Shown piece after piece: positions 5,621-35,384 of a stretch of 64,000 nt of DNA. Position numbers and translations under genes: made by a program. The DNA is from Labia minor (taxonomy: Eukaryota; Arthropoda; Insecta; Dermaptera; Spongiphoridae). The stretch lies in contig OY720344.1 of assembly GCA_963082975.1 (NCBI GenBank), forward strand, positions 8,171,580 through 8,235,579. The letters are read 5' to 3'. A model generated the notes under the pieces. It was not told the origin of the DNA, ran no database searches, and was given only the letters and a program-made list of their open reading frames with translations. The first letter of the stretch is position 1. Each line of letters begins with the position of its first letter.

Positions 5621-5723
5621 AAAAATTGATATTTATATATATATATATATATATATATCGTGAAATAATTAAAATTCTCAAGTCAAATATACAGCGTGCA
5701 CGCATACCGACGCATGTAATTGT

Positions 5724-6293
5724 GTGTGTGAACATGGTCGGCGATTCACACGCCAACACATAAAGTTATGTGCGTCGATGACCATTCACGTTATTTATCC
5801 GAATCTCAACATTACTTTAACACTACTAAATCAATTTAAAATTATTATTGCATTTAAAACTGCTTTTCTCTACTCCACAGATTTCACTATGCCGAAAAAA
5901 AATAACGACCAAAATTTAGACGATATTATTTATTTCATACACCGTTCACTACTGGTTTATAGCCACACAGGTGCTAATGCACTTGAACGAGGCGAAGATA
6001 AAATCCCTCTAATTCTCGGGGGAGATTTTAATGTAAATTTTGGATCTGATGATTCGTTGCCGTTGATCAACTTTCTTCGAGAAACATTTGGACTGCTTAT
6101 AAATAACGATCCCAAGGAATCAACAACAAAATCTGGAACTACAATAGATGCTGTTTTTACACGTTATATAGAAAATATCGAATCACGAACATATATATCT
6201 TATTTTAGTTATCACAAGCCATTAATATCAGTATTACCAATTGAATCACCAACCGACAATAGTACAGGCAATGTAGATATGATGATAGAGTAG
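5724..6293 (+). CDS. Endonuclease/exonuclease/phosphatase-type protein fragment, probably Helentron EN domain
   Basis: A 189-codon open frame; the recognisable part begins near codon 65 (DIIYFIHRSLLVYSH). It contains PLILGGDFNVNF, the GDFN motif of the AP-endonuclease-like fold, followed by STTKSGTTIDAVFTRY, with the conserved Asp of this fold, and YFSYHKPL, in the position of the SDHkP motif that ends the active site. The N-terminal catalytic Glu region is missing and the first 60 residues look like non-coding sequence read through, so the ATG at 5724 is arbitrary. The same motif set occurs in the C-terminal EN domain of Helentron Rep-Hel-EN proteins and in LINE endonucleases; the surrounding Helentron-like ends favour the former. 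It ends at TAG 6291-6293, about 140 bp from the stem-loop end. Confidence 0.6.
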   Translation: MCEHGRRFTRQHIKLCASMTIHVIYPNLNITLTLLNQFKIIIAFKTAFLYSTDFTMPKKNNDQNLDDIIYFIHRSLLVYSHTGANALERGEDKIPLILGGDFNVNFGSDDSLPLINFLRETFGLLINNDPKESTTKSGTTIDAVFTRYIENIESRTYISYFSYHKPLISVLPIESPTDNSTGNVDMMIE

Positions 6294-11954: not shown

Positions 11955-14900
11955 CTGCAATATAAACAGACACATAAGTATTTTTATATATAAATATAAA
12001 TAAAAAAAAACAACAACAACATTAATATATATCACACTTAATATACTTAGTAGAATAGTCTATTATAAAATAAGTTATAAGTTTTAGCTAAATGTTGTTA
12101 AAAATTAATTAACATTGATAAATAATAATTATCATAGATCGGAAATTATTAATTTTTGTATCAAAATCAAGATTTCACAAAAGTTAATGGAGAAATAAAA
12201 ATTATTTTACAGAAATACGTTCAATTTAGAATAAATTATTAGGTAAATATATATTTCTATTTTTAATCACTTAAAATCACTTTTATAATATGTATATATG
12301 TAATAAACTATTTAATATAAAGTTGATCACATTAAATATTTTATAGTGTAAAATTTTAATGATTATATGTTATTTATTTTTATGTTTTTGACACCCAAAT
12401 TTTGTCTCAATAAATGATCATTTAATGATAAATTTTATTTACTGACTAATAGAAGTAATTTTTAAATAATAGAAACAATTTTTTCAAAAATAAAATACAA
12501 TGAATTTGTTGTATTTATTCAATCAAATAATAATAGTATGTTTTCAGTTTATTACGTAAAATCATTTAAGTTATTCAAGTAACAAGATTTAAGGTAAAAC
12601 CATGGAATATAACGCGGTAAAGGATATGGCACGTTTTCCATATCTCGAAAACTAATCATTTTAGTGTAGGAAAGGGATTGAGGAATGATAAAAGAAATTC
12701 CATCATTTAATTATATCAAAGGCTTGTAATTTATTTTCTTTTGCAATTTTTATAAGTATAATGTATTCTATGTTTTTGCACATTCTTTAAAATTAATATT
12801 AAAACATATTTATTCACATATCCCTCATTGTTTAATATTTCAAAGTCTATATTTAAAATTGTGTCGAAGGAGTGATATCATACATTGTATATGCGAGGGA
12901 TATGGCGTGCGACTGCTTAACAGTGAAAAATCGAACCCCCAAAACAATTTAAAAAGACAACTGAAATATTTATAATCACAAACGTGTGTAAATATATTAT
13001 TTAAGTTTTATACTCTTTTAATTCATAAAATTTAGCCAATTAAATATTCAGATATTTCAACTTTGTTAGTTTTAATTTTTGTGTTTCTCTTAAGCAATAT
13101 CCTTCATATCGGCTAAATTTTAGTAGTTCTTCTTTTAAGAATAAAGCTGCAATTTTTACTATAGGTACGTAATAGGTACAATTAATACTATGTCAAAAAT
13201 ACGAATTGTGTGTCATATACCTCGGTTTTACATTATAAAATTGATAATTAAGCAGTAATGTTCTATTGTTCATCAATATTATCATCCTCTTATTACAATC
13301 TAATTTTATTTAATATCATCGGAAAATCACGAGACAGATTTCTTTGATTTCGATTGACTATTCTAAGACTCTCCCAATGTTTATTCAATCAATCAAGGAT
13401 AGGAATGAATAGTTAAGAACTTTCGAGTTCATTTAGCTCCTTGATTTAAATTCTTGTTTAATTTATCCATATCAATTTTTATCATACTATTTAGCCAGAT
13501 AATAAATAAATTTTAAAAGTCTGATTTAACAAGGAATTATATATTCTTAACCCTGATAAAGTTTTGTTACATTAGAGTTTAATTTATTTATTTTACCTGA
13601 TACCTCCCGTTTTCCAAGTCCAAATCCGTACATTCGATTTCCTGATCGTTTTCCAAGACCAAATGAATACATAGGTGGTACTCGTTTACCTAAACCAAAG
13701 GCATAGGGGCGCAATCTTTTGCCAAGGCCGAACGCATACAACCGACCATTGCCATTGCTGGAACGTTTCTCCAAGGAAGATGCCATATAATCAGGATCAA
13801 TCTAAAATTGAATACAATCAAAAAAAATTTAAAAAATCCAAATGTGGAGGTTAACTAAGTTATTATTTGCACAGTGTATTCTAATAAAATGTATTACTTA
13901 TTTAAATATTGGGAATTTGAATTAATAATGAGCGTTTCGCACAAGAATGTTTCAATATTTCAATTTGCAATGTCTTCCCGCTAAAACCTACAGTCTATGG
14001 TCGTCTTGAACAGCTTGTATCATTTGGTTGAAACGTAATCAACAGTACTAAATATTGTTTCGTACATGTCCAATTTCGTACCAAATAAAGTATTTTTGTA
14101 GGGAGTTTTTCTTCATTATTTTAATATGAAGAAAAGTGAGGCCTAGAGTCATCATATCTTAGTGTAAGTTTACAGTGTTTGGAGATGGATTGGTCGCTTT
14201 AAAAGTGGTGATTTTGAACAAGGAACGGTCTGGTCAATTCAAAAATTTTGAAGACGAAGAATTAGAATCACCATTCAATAAAACGCTTTCGGAATCAACT
14301 CATGCGTTTAAGCTGCGAACTGAAACAAAAACGGCCGGAATTCGAAGAAAGGCACGACAAAGTGATTTTACACCATGACAACGCTCGGCCACATGTTGCA
14401 AAACCGGTGAAAACCTATCTAGAAAAACTCAAATGGGAAGACCTACCTCACTCGCCGTATTTTCCAGACATTGCTCCTTCAGATTTTTACTTGTTCCGGT
14501 CAATGATACGTGATCTGTCCCAGCTAGAAGTTCACTTGAACAATATGAACAATGAAAAAAATAGATCGATGATTGGATTGCCTCAAAAGACGAGTTGTTT
14601 TTTGGAGCTGGTTTCCAAAAATTGACAGAAAGATGGGAAAAAGTAGTGGCCAGCAATGGACAATATTTGTAACCATTATTTGAAAATATTTCGAAAAGAA
14701 CGCTCATCATCAATTCAAGTTCCCTATATTTTATTTAAATTTAGGAATAAAAGAATCAGTACTTAAATGGATGAATGTAACTTACCTCATAAATATCTTC
14801 ATCTAGATTGTTTTCATCGGTGTCAATATAATCTTCGTAATCTCTCTTGCCTAATCCGAAGGAATACATTCTGTCTGTCGCACGTTTTCCAATTCCAAAA

Positions 14901-15277
14901 CTGTAGAGCCGATCGGATGTTATGGGTCTCTTGCCAATTAAGTTTTCATCTCCTTCGTATCTTTTTCCAAGACGAGGTGAGTACACTCTATCCGACCCCG
15001 TCCTCTTCCCTAAACCAAAACTATACATTCGATTGGAATCTCGTTTTCCTAATCCAAAATTATAAACTGGCAAACGTTTGTATTGGGAGTAAATATTCCT
15101 TTTGCCAGATCCATAATTATATAATCGTTTTGAAAATTCTAATTCATTGTCAGATGGTGGTGATAAGTCAATGATCTCATTTTCTGAAGCGGAAATCGGA
15201 TCCAAATCCGCCGAGTTGGATTGACTTAATCCAAAGAAAATAAGAACTAAACAAGAGGACACGAGGCTTGATAACAT
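11830..15277 (-). CDS. AstA: Allatostatin-A (FGLamide) neuropeptide precursor; coding exons 15277..14786, 13801..13597, 11954..11830
   Basis: Encodes a secreted prohormone cut at KR sites into FGLamides, insect peptides that act on the allatostatin-A receptor (inhibiting juvenile hormone synthesis in some insects; gut and feeding control in others). The joined protein has 273 residues: hydrophobic signal peptide about 1-23, acidic spacer to K50-R51, then LYNYGSG (52-58), NIYSQY, LPVYNFGLG (69-77), DSNRMYSFGLG, TGSDRVYSPRLG (93-104), YEGDENLIG, PITSDRLYSFGIG, ATDRMYSFGLG, a second acidic spacer (146-174), SSNGNGRLYAFGLG, LRPYAFGLG, VPPMYSFGLG, SGNRMYGFGLG, and MSGNQLHQLNFGID (243-256) before a short tail. 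That is seven FGLamides and one FGIamide. Splice sites are GAG|gtaagt to ttttag|ATT (phase 0) and CAG|gtaaaa to attgcag|AAG (phase 1). The Met at 15277 opens the signal peptide. The family and first two exons are near certain; the last exon is a good inference. Confidence 0.93.
11955..13596 (-). other. AstA: Allatostatin-A intron 2
   Basis: A 1642-bp AT-rich intron between exons 2 and 3. I see no further FGLGKR-like coding piece and no clear transposon in it. Around 12600-12960 there is slightly more GC-rich sequence (GGATATGGCACG and GGATATGGCGTG repeated) of unknown nature. Confidence 0.5.
13597..13801 (-). CDS. AstA: Allatostatin-A coding exon 2
   Basis: 68 codons plus one base, starting IDPDYMASSLEKR and carrying four FGLamide copies (RLYAFGLGKR, LRPYAFGLGKR, VPPMYSFGLGKR, NRMYGFGLGKR). 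The acceptor is caattttag at 13802. For the donor I prefer CAG|gtaaaa at 13597 over GAG|gtatca seven bases earlier, because only the former (phase 1) opens the downstream exon. Confidence 0.88.
13930..14715 (+). mobile_element. Mariner relic in allatostatin-A intron 1, antisense to the gene
   Basis: The plus strand shows a mariner transposase start, MSNFVPNKVFL (from 14066), NMKKSEA, then WRWIGRFKSGDFEQG and KNFEDEELE of the DNA-binding half. It then jumps to MRLSCELKQKRPEFEERHDK, VILHHDNARPHVAKPVKTYL (second catalytic Asp) and LPHSPYFPDIAPSDFYLF (third Asp), ending KLTERWEKVVASNGQYL near 14670. This wording is typical of the mauritiana/cecropia-type mariners. The middle with the first Asp is deleted, and there are stops and several frame changes. 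The intron 1 span is 14785-13802. Confidence 0.85.
14786..15277 (-). CDS. AstA: Allatostatin-A coding exon 1
   Basis: 164 codons, from the initiator Met to Glu164, with the signal peptide and the first peptide cluster. The open frame would run nine codons further into the intron (to 14756), but GAG|gtaagt at 14786/14785 is a near-consensus donor and lets the acidic spacer continue in the next exon. It holds the two oddest copies, LYNYGSGKR and VYSPRLGKR. Confidence 0.93.
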
Positions 15278-33295: not shown

Positions 33296-33524
33296 ATATT
33301 TATTATATAAATTAATATTCATTTAAAATGATATTAAATCATTTATTTAAAATGATTTAAAACATTTATTAAAATGATTTAAAACATTCATTTAAAATGA
33401 TATTAAAACATTCATTTAAAATCATATTAAAACATAGCTAGTAAATAATAATTCGTTATATTTATATTATATTTATATTATATTTATATTATTGTAGTTC
33501 AATGTTAATAAATTACTCCATAAA

Positions 33525-35384
33525 ATGGATCGTTGGCTACAAACTGGTTCAACACAGAAACGGAAAGAATCAGATGATGAGGCATCAACAGCAAACTCTA
33601 CCAAGAAACGCAAAACTAGAAAATATTCGGATGATTATTTATCATTTGGATTTACTTATATTTGCAACAATGATGTGGAAAGACCAGTCTGCGTTCTATG
33701 TCAGAAAAGTTTATCCAATGAAAGTATGAAACCTGCTAATCTCAGACGTCATTTACAAACAAAGCACAGCGAGCATGTTAGTAAGTCTATCGAATTTTTT
33801 AAAATGAAAAAAGAAGAACTTAATTCAAGTCAGAAATTGATGGTAAAGACGGGATCTGGTGGTATGAGTAAGAAAGCAGTAATGGCATCATATGAAGTAG
33901 CTCTACTTATTGCTAAAGCAGGAAAGCCGCATAATATAGCAGAGCAATTAATTCTTCCTGCTACAAAAGTAATTACAAATATAATGTTAGGAACTAAAGC
34001 AGCAAACGATATAAATTTGATTTCATTATCAAATGATACGGTTAAGAATAGGATTGAAGACATGTCATGTAATATAAAAGAAGAATTAATATCGAGAGTG
34101 CGCAAAAGTCACTATTACTCATTACAATTGGATGAAAGTACTGATGTCACTAATAATGCCAATTTGTTAGCTTTCATTAGATATGAGTTTGAAAATCAAA
34201 TACAAGAAGATGTATTGTTTTGTGATTCACTACCTTCACGAACGACAGCTAATGACATATTTAACAGTTTGAATAATTTTATAACCGAAAATGAAATAGA
34301 GTGGCCAAAATGTGTTGGAATTTGCACTGATGGTGCTCGTGCAATGTCAGGTACAAGAACTGGATTGATTGCTCTTATTAAAAATGTTGCGCCTCAGGTT
34401 GTTTGGAATCATTGCTGCATTCACAGAGAATCATTAGCAGCCAAAAATATGTCACCAGATTTGAAAAGAACATTAGACGAAGTAGTTAAAATTGTCAATT
34501 TCATTAAGGCTCGTCCACTTAATTCCAGAGTTTTTAAAATTTTGTGTGAGGAAATGGGTAGTCAACATACACATTTATTATTACATACAGATGTACGTTG
34601 GTTGTCCCGCGGGAAAGTACTCATTCGCCTTTTTGAGCTTCGAGATGAAATACGATTGTTTTTAATAGATGCGCATTTTGAACTGACCGAATGTTTCAAT
34701 GATTTTATCTGGTTAGCTAAGGTGGCTTACTTGACTGATATTTTTACAAAATTGAACGAACTTAATTTGAGCCTGCAAGGTACTGTTGTAAATATATTTA
34801 AAGTTGAAGATAAAATAGAAGCAATGATTAAAAAAATCGACTTGTGGTCGAAACGCATCCAGAACGGTGTATATGAGTCTTTTCCAACTCTCAATGATTT
34901 CATAGAAAGCTCCAGTGAAAAATTGCTTAATCAAACGCGTCAATTATTTGTTGAACATTTAATTACTTTGAAAAGCAACTTCAGGAAGTATTTTTCTACT
35001 CCTGATCCTTGCAATAACTGGATCAGAGATCCATTTAATATGGAAATTACAAATGCTAAACATTTATCTGCACCTGAACAAGATATTCTCGTGGAATTAT
35101 CATGTGATACAACTTATAAACTAAAATTTAACAAAACTGAATTGAGCAACTTTTGGTTACTTCTCAGGTCAGATTATCCTGCGCTTGCAAATAAAGCACT
35201 TCAACACTTGATTCCATTCTGCACAACATATTTATGCGAACAAGCTTTTTCGGTACTATTTTATATTAAGTCTAAATATAGAAACAAATTAAATGTAGAG
35301 CCGGATCTTAGATTAAAAGTTTCCAATATTAAGCCAGATATTGAGATTCTTGTTTCAAGAAAACAACTGCATACATCTCATTAA
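33525..35384 (+). CDS. hAT superfamily transposase (BED zinc finger, ZBED5/SCAND3-like)
   Basis: A 619-residue transposase that would cut out and reinsert its own transposon in the nucleus by a hAT DDE mechanism. Order: basic N-terminus with KKRKTRK (27-33, possible nuclear signal); BED-type finger C56-x2-C59 ... H76-x4-H81 in VCVLCQKSLSNES and LRRHLQTKH; catalytic Asp203 in LQLDESTDVTNNANLL; Asp269 in GICTDGARAMSG; the C/H motif NHCCIHRESLAAK (295-307), WLSRGKVL (359-366), and the C-terminal dimerisation region with Glu572 in YLCEQAFSVLFYIKSKYRN. Length, start (Met at 33525 next to MDRWL, a common start in this group) and stop fit a complete protein. No stop or frame change is seen. An antisense open frame at 33830-34105 is a shadow. 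Confidence 0.95.
   Translation: MDRWLQTGSTQKRKESDDEASTANSTKKRKTRKYSDDYLSFGFTYICNNDVERPVCVLCQKSLSNESMKPANLRRHLQTKHSEHVSKSIEFFKMKKEELNSSQKLMVKTGSGGMSKKAVMASYEVALLIAKAGKPHNIAEQLILPATKVITNIMLGTKAANDINLISLSNDTVKNRIEDMSCNIKEELISRVRKSHYYSLQLDESTDVTNNANLLAFIRYEFENQIQEDVLFCDSLPSRTTANDIFNSLNNFITENEIEWPKCVGICTDGARAMSGTRTGLIALIKNVAPQVVWNHCCIHRESLAAKNMSPDLKRTLDEVVKIVNFIKARPLNSRVFKILCEEMGSQHTHLLLHTDVRWLSRGKVLIRLFELRDEIRLFLIDAHFELTECFNDFIWLAKVAYLTDIFTKLNELNLSLQGTVVNIFKVEDKIEAMIKKIDLWSKRIQNGVYESFPTLNDFIESSSEKLLNQTRQLFVEHLITLKSNFRKYFSTPDPCNNWIRDPFNMEITNAKHLSAPEQDILVELSCDTTYKLKFNKTELSNFWLLLRSDYPALANKALQHLIPFCTTYLCEQAFSVLFYIKSKYRNKLNVEPDLRLKVSNIKPDIEILVSRKQLHTSH

Follow-up and report, generated by a model that had tools for sequence, protein, structure and literature searches.

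Allatostatin-A (AstA) peptides carry the C terminus Y/FXFGLamide (PMC9263205), and that of PK2 pyrokinins is FXPRLamide (PMC7255104), a tail described in a passage of one review as the minimal requirement for activity (PMC10755894). By our own reading of these motifs, aromatic-X-F-G-L and aromatic-X-P-R-L differ at two positions. Departures from the AstA consensus are described for Heteroptera, where off-consensus AstA slots have kept their processing signals: in Rhodnius and Halyomorpha the first AstA copy ends in LGLamide, and the AstA precursor of two stinkbugs holds an extra amidated peptide that is not an AstA (cited passages of PMC6250713). In mantis tryptopyrokinin precursors, a few mutated copies are termed no longer active (PMC11874938, cited passages). 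A survey in Drosophila concluded that paracopies never fully escaped selection and passed through no phase of neutral mutation, and it counted AstA copies among those varying consistently little from species to species (PMC2575521). The same survey also counts against sub- and neofunctionalization as fates of Drosophila paracopies; because its cited passages speak against free decay as well as against neofunctionalization, they back neither decay nor new use outright.

In the Labia minor sequence analyzed here (the window, a stretch of 64 kb at positions 8171580-8235579 of its contig), the minus strand encodes an AstA precursor gene in which one slot has both of the differing positions changed and the rest of the motif kept. 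The PRL ending is real in the DNA and may either be used by the animal or belong to a worn-out copy.

Layout of the AstA precursor gene

The gene comprises two exons, A and B, and its frame, the PRL slot, and the processing signals are open to direct reading (Table 1). Exon A starts with the ATG at 15277, preceded by an acceptor-like TTTTTCAG, and ends with the donor GAG/GTAAGT at 14786, both read in the sequence. For the 3' end of exon B there are two candidates, the stop at 13549-13547 and a splice near 13605. The hydrophobic stretch at approximately residues 4-19, a candidate signal peptide, reached a 10-residue Kyte-Doolittle mean of up to 2.8. The segments of exon A, each followed by GKR, are in order LYNYGS, LPVYNFGL, DSNRMYSFGL, TGSDRVYSPRL, YEGDENLI, PITSDRLYSFGI, and ATDRMYSFGL; those of exon B, likewise each followed by GKR, are SSNGNGRLYAFGL, LRPYAFGL, VPPMYSFGL, and SGNRMYGFGL. 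LPVYNFGL is preceded by NIYSQY, whose terminal KR has no Gly before it. Over both exons, an FGL or FGI tail is present in eight of the 11 GKR-ended segments and absent from three.

Table 1. Coordinates of the AstA precursor gene and of its off-consensus segments in the window
Feature	Position	Strand	Basis
AstA exon A	14786..15277	-	Translation; 7 GKR-ended segments; hydrophobic N terminus, acidic spacer
Intron between exons A and B	13802..14785	-	Predicted, phase 0; GTAAGT donor and TTTTAG acceptor read in sequence
AstA exon B	13547..13801	-	Open frame; starts after TTTTAG
Slot TGSDRVYSPRL-GKR, residues 93-106 of the frame from ATG 15277	14960..15001	-	Codon translation
PRL codons CCT CGT CTT, replacing FGL	14969..14977	-	Translation
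YEGDENLI-GKR, segment without AstA core	14927..14959	-	Translation; 11-17/33 bases identical to 8 canonical units
LYNYGS-GKR, first slot, YGS replacing FGL	15098..15124	-	Translation; 16-23/33 bases identical to 8 canonical units

The gene thus presents several Y/F-X-FGL-amide copies with dibasic flanks, as is typical of an AstA precursor, and a scan of both strands of the window found no FGL-GKR beyond exons A and B. Exon B matched the Pfam family Allatostatin (PF05953) with an E value of 3.7e-06 and 27 bits, which is below the curated cut-off of 33.5, and exon A matched no Pfam-A family at E values up to 0.1. For this reason, the AstA name was taken from the recurrence of Y-X-FGL-GKR, in agreement with the AstA definition in the cited part of PMC9263205. 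A pattern search of viral contigs for sequences related to exon A gave 10 matching stretches, none of which was confirmed, and tRNA and Rfam scans of the 64-kb window gave no matches.

A transposon relic of approximately 830 bases lies in the AstA intron (13904-14731); its inverted ends of 33 nt (13904-13936 and 14699-14731) are 88% complementary. Within the relic, an open stretch on the plus strand (14266-14625) was assigned to no Pfam family; we take it to be a mariner-type transposase. A 620-aa open frame at 33522-35384 is probably a hAT-like transposase: in Pfam it matched the hAT dimerisation region with 19.5 bits (cut-off 21.4) and a BED zinc finger with 18.9 bits (cut-off 20.6), both below the curated scores; no convincing terminal repeats for this frame were present among the 25 of 68 inverted pairs listed. 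The open stretch at 5673-6293 may be part of a LINE-type element; its matches to endonuclease/reverse-transcriptase domains (PF14529, PF03372) are below curated scores. Just below the window, a region of 9,980 bases contains two frames: one of 244 aa on the plus strand, presumably a WD40-repeat protein (WDR70-like), and one of 223 aa on the minus strand, which we assume to be a mariner-type transposase.

The PRL slot and its descent

Residues 93-106 of the precursor are TGSDRVYSPRLGKR, encoded by the codons ACG GGG TCG GAT AGA GTG TAC TCA CCT CGT CTT GGA AAA AGA (15001-14960, minus strand). The KR pairs and the Gly of the slot are intact, and codon translation confirmed the initial annotation, which had described the slot at these residues with KR on both sides and a Gly for amidation. 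The change from FGL to PRL via two codons, Phe to Pro and Gly to Arg, was likewise borne out by the translation and requires at least three base changes versus a TTT GGT sibling. The slot had been placed between two normal FGLamide copies; this is correct for the upstream neighbor, DSNRMYSFGL-GKR, and incorrect for the downstream side, where YEGDENLI-GKR intervenes before PITSDRLYSFGI-GKR. The product had been given as VYSPRLamide (calculated MH+ 733.44), a peptide that requires an additional cut after the single Arg97, whereas cleavage from KR to KR yields TGSDRVYSPRLamide (calculated MH+ 1249.66).

The tail YSPRL lacks the Y/FXFGLamide ending of AstA peptides. It also deviates from the pyrokinin ending FXPRLamide by Tyr in place of Phe, the remainder fitting. 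The pattern VY-S/T-PRLGK, which was degenerate, permitted a few other third residues, and is blind to an FGL allele, had a single match in the whole assembly (604,477,936 bases, 71 contigs), located at the slot. The reversed control of this pattern gave 0 matches in the whole assembly.

Within its last 11 residues, three of which are accounted for by GKR, the slot is identical to each of the eight canonical units at 6-8 positions. The highest value (8/11) was obtained with unit c6, and DR-x-YS-xx-L-GKR is retained in register, as seen in the alignment of SDR-V-YS-PR-L-GKR with the sibling SDR-L-YS-FG-I-GKR. At the level of the last 11 codons, 15-22 of 33 bases of the slot are identical to those of each of the eight canonical units, compared with 17-25 of 33 among the canonical units themselves; by descent, the slot therefore belongs to the repeat set and is no late duplicate of a present sibling. 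The position in register with the siblings is that of a former AstA copy, and the sequence supports the earlier statement that an AstA copy has gained a PRLamide end. Descent from a pk/pban or capa precursor does not agree with a slot lying in register among AstA copies, and derivation from a pyrokinin gene was rejected on these grounds. A wrong reading frame was rejected as well, the frame being open throughout exon A.

Of the other off-consensus segments, YEGDENLI-GKR is either a spacer or a lost copy. Both this segment and LYNYGS-GKR are amidation-competent, with predicted amidated MH+ values of 951.44 and 715.34, respectively.

Explanations for the altered copy

The explanation that we consider probable is an altered AstA copy no longer belonging to the AstA family, presumably still processed, with relaxed constraint as the most likely cause. 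Frame, exon boundaries, KR, and Gly are intact, and the GKR-ended segments are canonical in eight of 11 cases and not in three, both of which argue for this explanation. The base identity with the canonical units, which suggests that the slot belongs to the repeat set, points in the same direction. With regard to expression, processing, receptor behavior, and the cause of the change, we infer the following sequence of events. In an otherwise intact AstA precursor gene, the substitutions Phe to Pro and Gly to Arg would have deprived one old paracopy of its FGLamide core. As cutting at KR and amidation should persist in the PRL slot, TGSDRVYSPRLamide would leave the AstA-releasing cells together with AstA. 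The activity of AstA depends on Phe and Leu. With Phe and Gly missing from the slot, a loss of this activity is expected, and the peptide would act weakly on the AstA receptor or not at all. As for the cause, a relaxed constraint on single copies of a precursor with many copies would be the likeliest, and the LYNYGS slot would be explained in the same way. Since the remaining skeleton is aromatic-Ser-Pro-Arg-Leu-amide, the peptide might happen to activate a PK2-type pyrokinin receptor.

The initial annotation had stated that the slot could equally be a decayed copy. Decay is in line with the two other GKR-ended segments without FGL and with the parallels in Heteroptera and in mantis tryptopyrokinin precursors. 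Against relaxed constraint stand the retention of frame, Gly, and KR in the slot and the rarity of Pro-Arg with Leu or Ile kept in a simulation (38 of 23,576 runs). The conclusion on selection and the low variation of AstA copies in Drosophila would also count against free decay of the slot.

The chance estimates were obtained with simple substitution models, in which the exon piece used for the base composition of the random tails was one base off the codon boundary, with a slight effect. Three sibling FGL/FGI triplets were mutated, with transitions and changes to A/T favored, to the endpoint that F and G were both replaced and L or I was kept. This endpoint was reached in 23,576 of 60,000 runs, and the Pro-Arg outcome, again with L or I kept, made up 0.16% of them. 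Random tails generated with three base compositions contained Pro-Arg in 0.10-0.30% and the exact PRL in 0.01-0.04% of cases; 1.1-1.3% of them matched some ending on a hand-made list of known neuropeptide tails. The PRL motif was chosen after the fact, and an honest figure for a coincidence is in the range of a few per cent, because the 1.1-1.3% of matching tails has to be combined with three altered segments. The chance estimate is not decisive.

We favor the altered copy through relaxed constraint over a new ligand established by selection, which we regard as rather unlikely. According to the latter, the AstA precursor would yield both AstA and a pyrokinin-like peptide, so that one cell type would send two messages to two receptors. 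Both replacements indeed give residues of the pyrokinin core while Tyr-Ser and Leu are unchanged, and Pro-Arg is rare under blind replacement as well as in random tails. Among the predicted peptides of Argochrysis armilla, SPSLYSPRLa is listed under PK and SSQGQLTLGGYTPRLa under PVK (Table 1 in PMC5831470); YXPRLa tails therefore occur, at least as predictions, and the Tyr form is not unheard of. All three PK receptors of Tribolium respond strongly to PK2/PBAN peptides (PMC4210869, cited passage), which would also suit a new ligand. On the other hand, the slot has Tyr in place of the Phe of FXPRLamide, the tail called a minimal requirement (PMC10755894), and in Drosophila the cited survey (PMC2575521) disfavors a sub- or neofunctionalization of paracopies. 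In addition, the two further precursor segments without FGL resemble no hormone tail known to us. Published receptor work points in both directions; activity of TGSDRVYSPRLamide on a pyrokinin receptor is therefore possible and not readable from the tail.

The further-reaching proposal of a copy that changed family, by which the AstA precursor acquired a working ligand of a pyrokinin receptor, released along with the allatostatins in brain and gut and connecting one gene to two receptors, appears unlikely. In a literature search covering paper listings and passages of selected papers, no report of a PRLamide copy within an AstA precursor was found; VYSPRLamide and fragments of six copies of the present precursor were not found in the literature search either.

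A polymorphism or a very recent mutation of the sequenced individual would be compatible with the single assembled copy seen and with an assembly-wide pattern that is blind to an FGL allele. It is improbable, since the two adjacent codons differ from TTT GGT by at least three bases and, together with the synonymous choices TCA and CTT, fit better to an old divergence than to a single recent event. That the segment is a mere spacer, with a meaningless PRL and degradation following cleavage, might be suggested by the adjoining YEGDENLI, which resembles a spacer with GKR, but is very unlikely for a segment that ends in an amidation signal and whose DR-x-YS-xx-L-GKR is in register with the siblings, as expected for a former copy. 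A sequencing or assembly error in the slot, which was read in the assembled sequence, is hardly credible: the frame is open over the whole exon with intact splice signals, the assembly comprises 604 Mb in 71 contigs with the present contig at 126 Mb, and three substitutions that leave a meaningful motif are improbable.

Comparison with known precursors and peptides

If the PRL slot is used, it would exemplify concretely how a multi-copy precursor yields a ligand for another receptor system, by a visible route of two residues. If it is decayed, it would show how small the gap between the two cores is, and would advise caution against naming PRLamide peptides pyrokinins from the tail alone.

The present gene shares with insect AstA (FGLamide allatostatin) precursors the hydrophobic N terminus and the many Y-X-FGL-GKR copies, and differs from them in that one copy ends in PRL and the first in YGS. 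The slot shares the YSPRLamide tail with a predicted pyrokinin of Argochrysis (SPSLYSPRLa, PMC5831470); in contrast to pyrokinins (FXPRLamide), it is encoded within an AstA precursor and descends from an AstA copy, and the consensus Phe is replaced by Tyr. Mantis tryptopyrokinin precursors likewise contain single copies that lost the core while most copies are intact, but the cited passages of PMC11874938 describe none that turned into the motif of another family, as in the present slot. Among Heteroptera, there are likewise AstA precursors that are normal apart from off-consensus amidated slots (LTELGLamide in Rhodnius and DLGKDSQPKSLYDLGLamide in Halyomorpha; PMC6250713). In the heteropteran slots described there, one core residue is changed (FGL to LGL), whereas in the present slot two are changed, and the motif of another family is reached.
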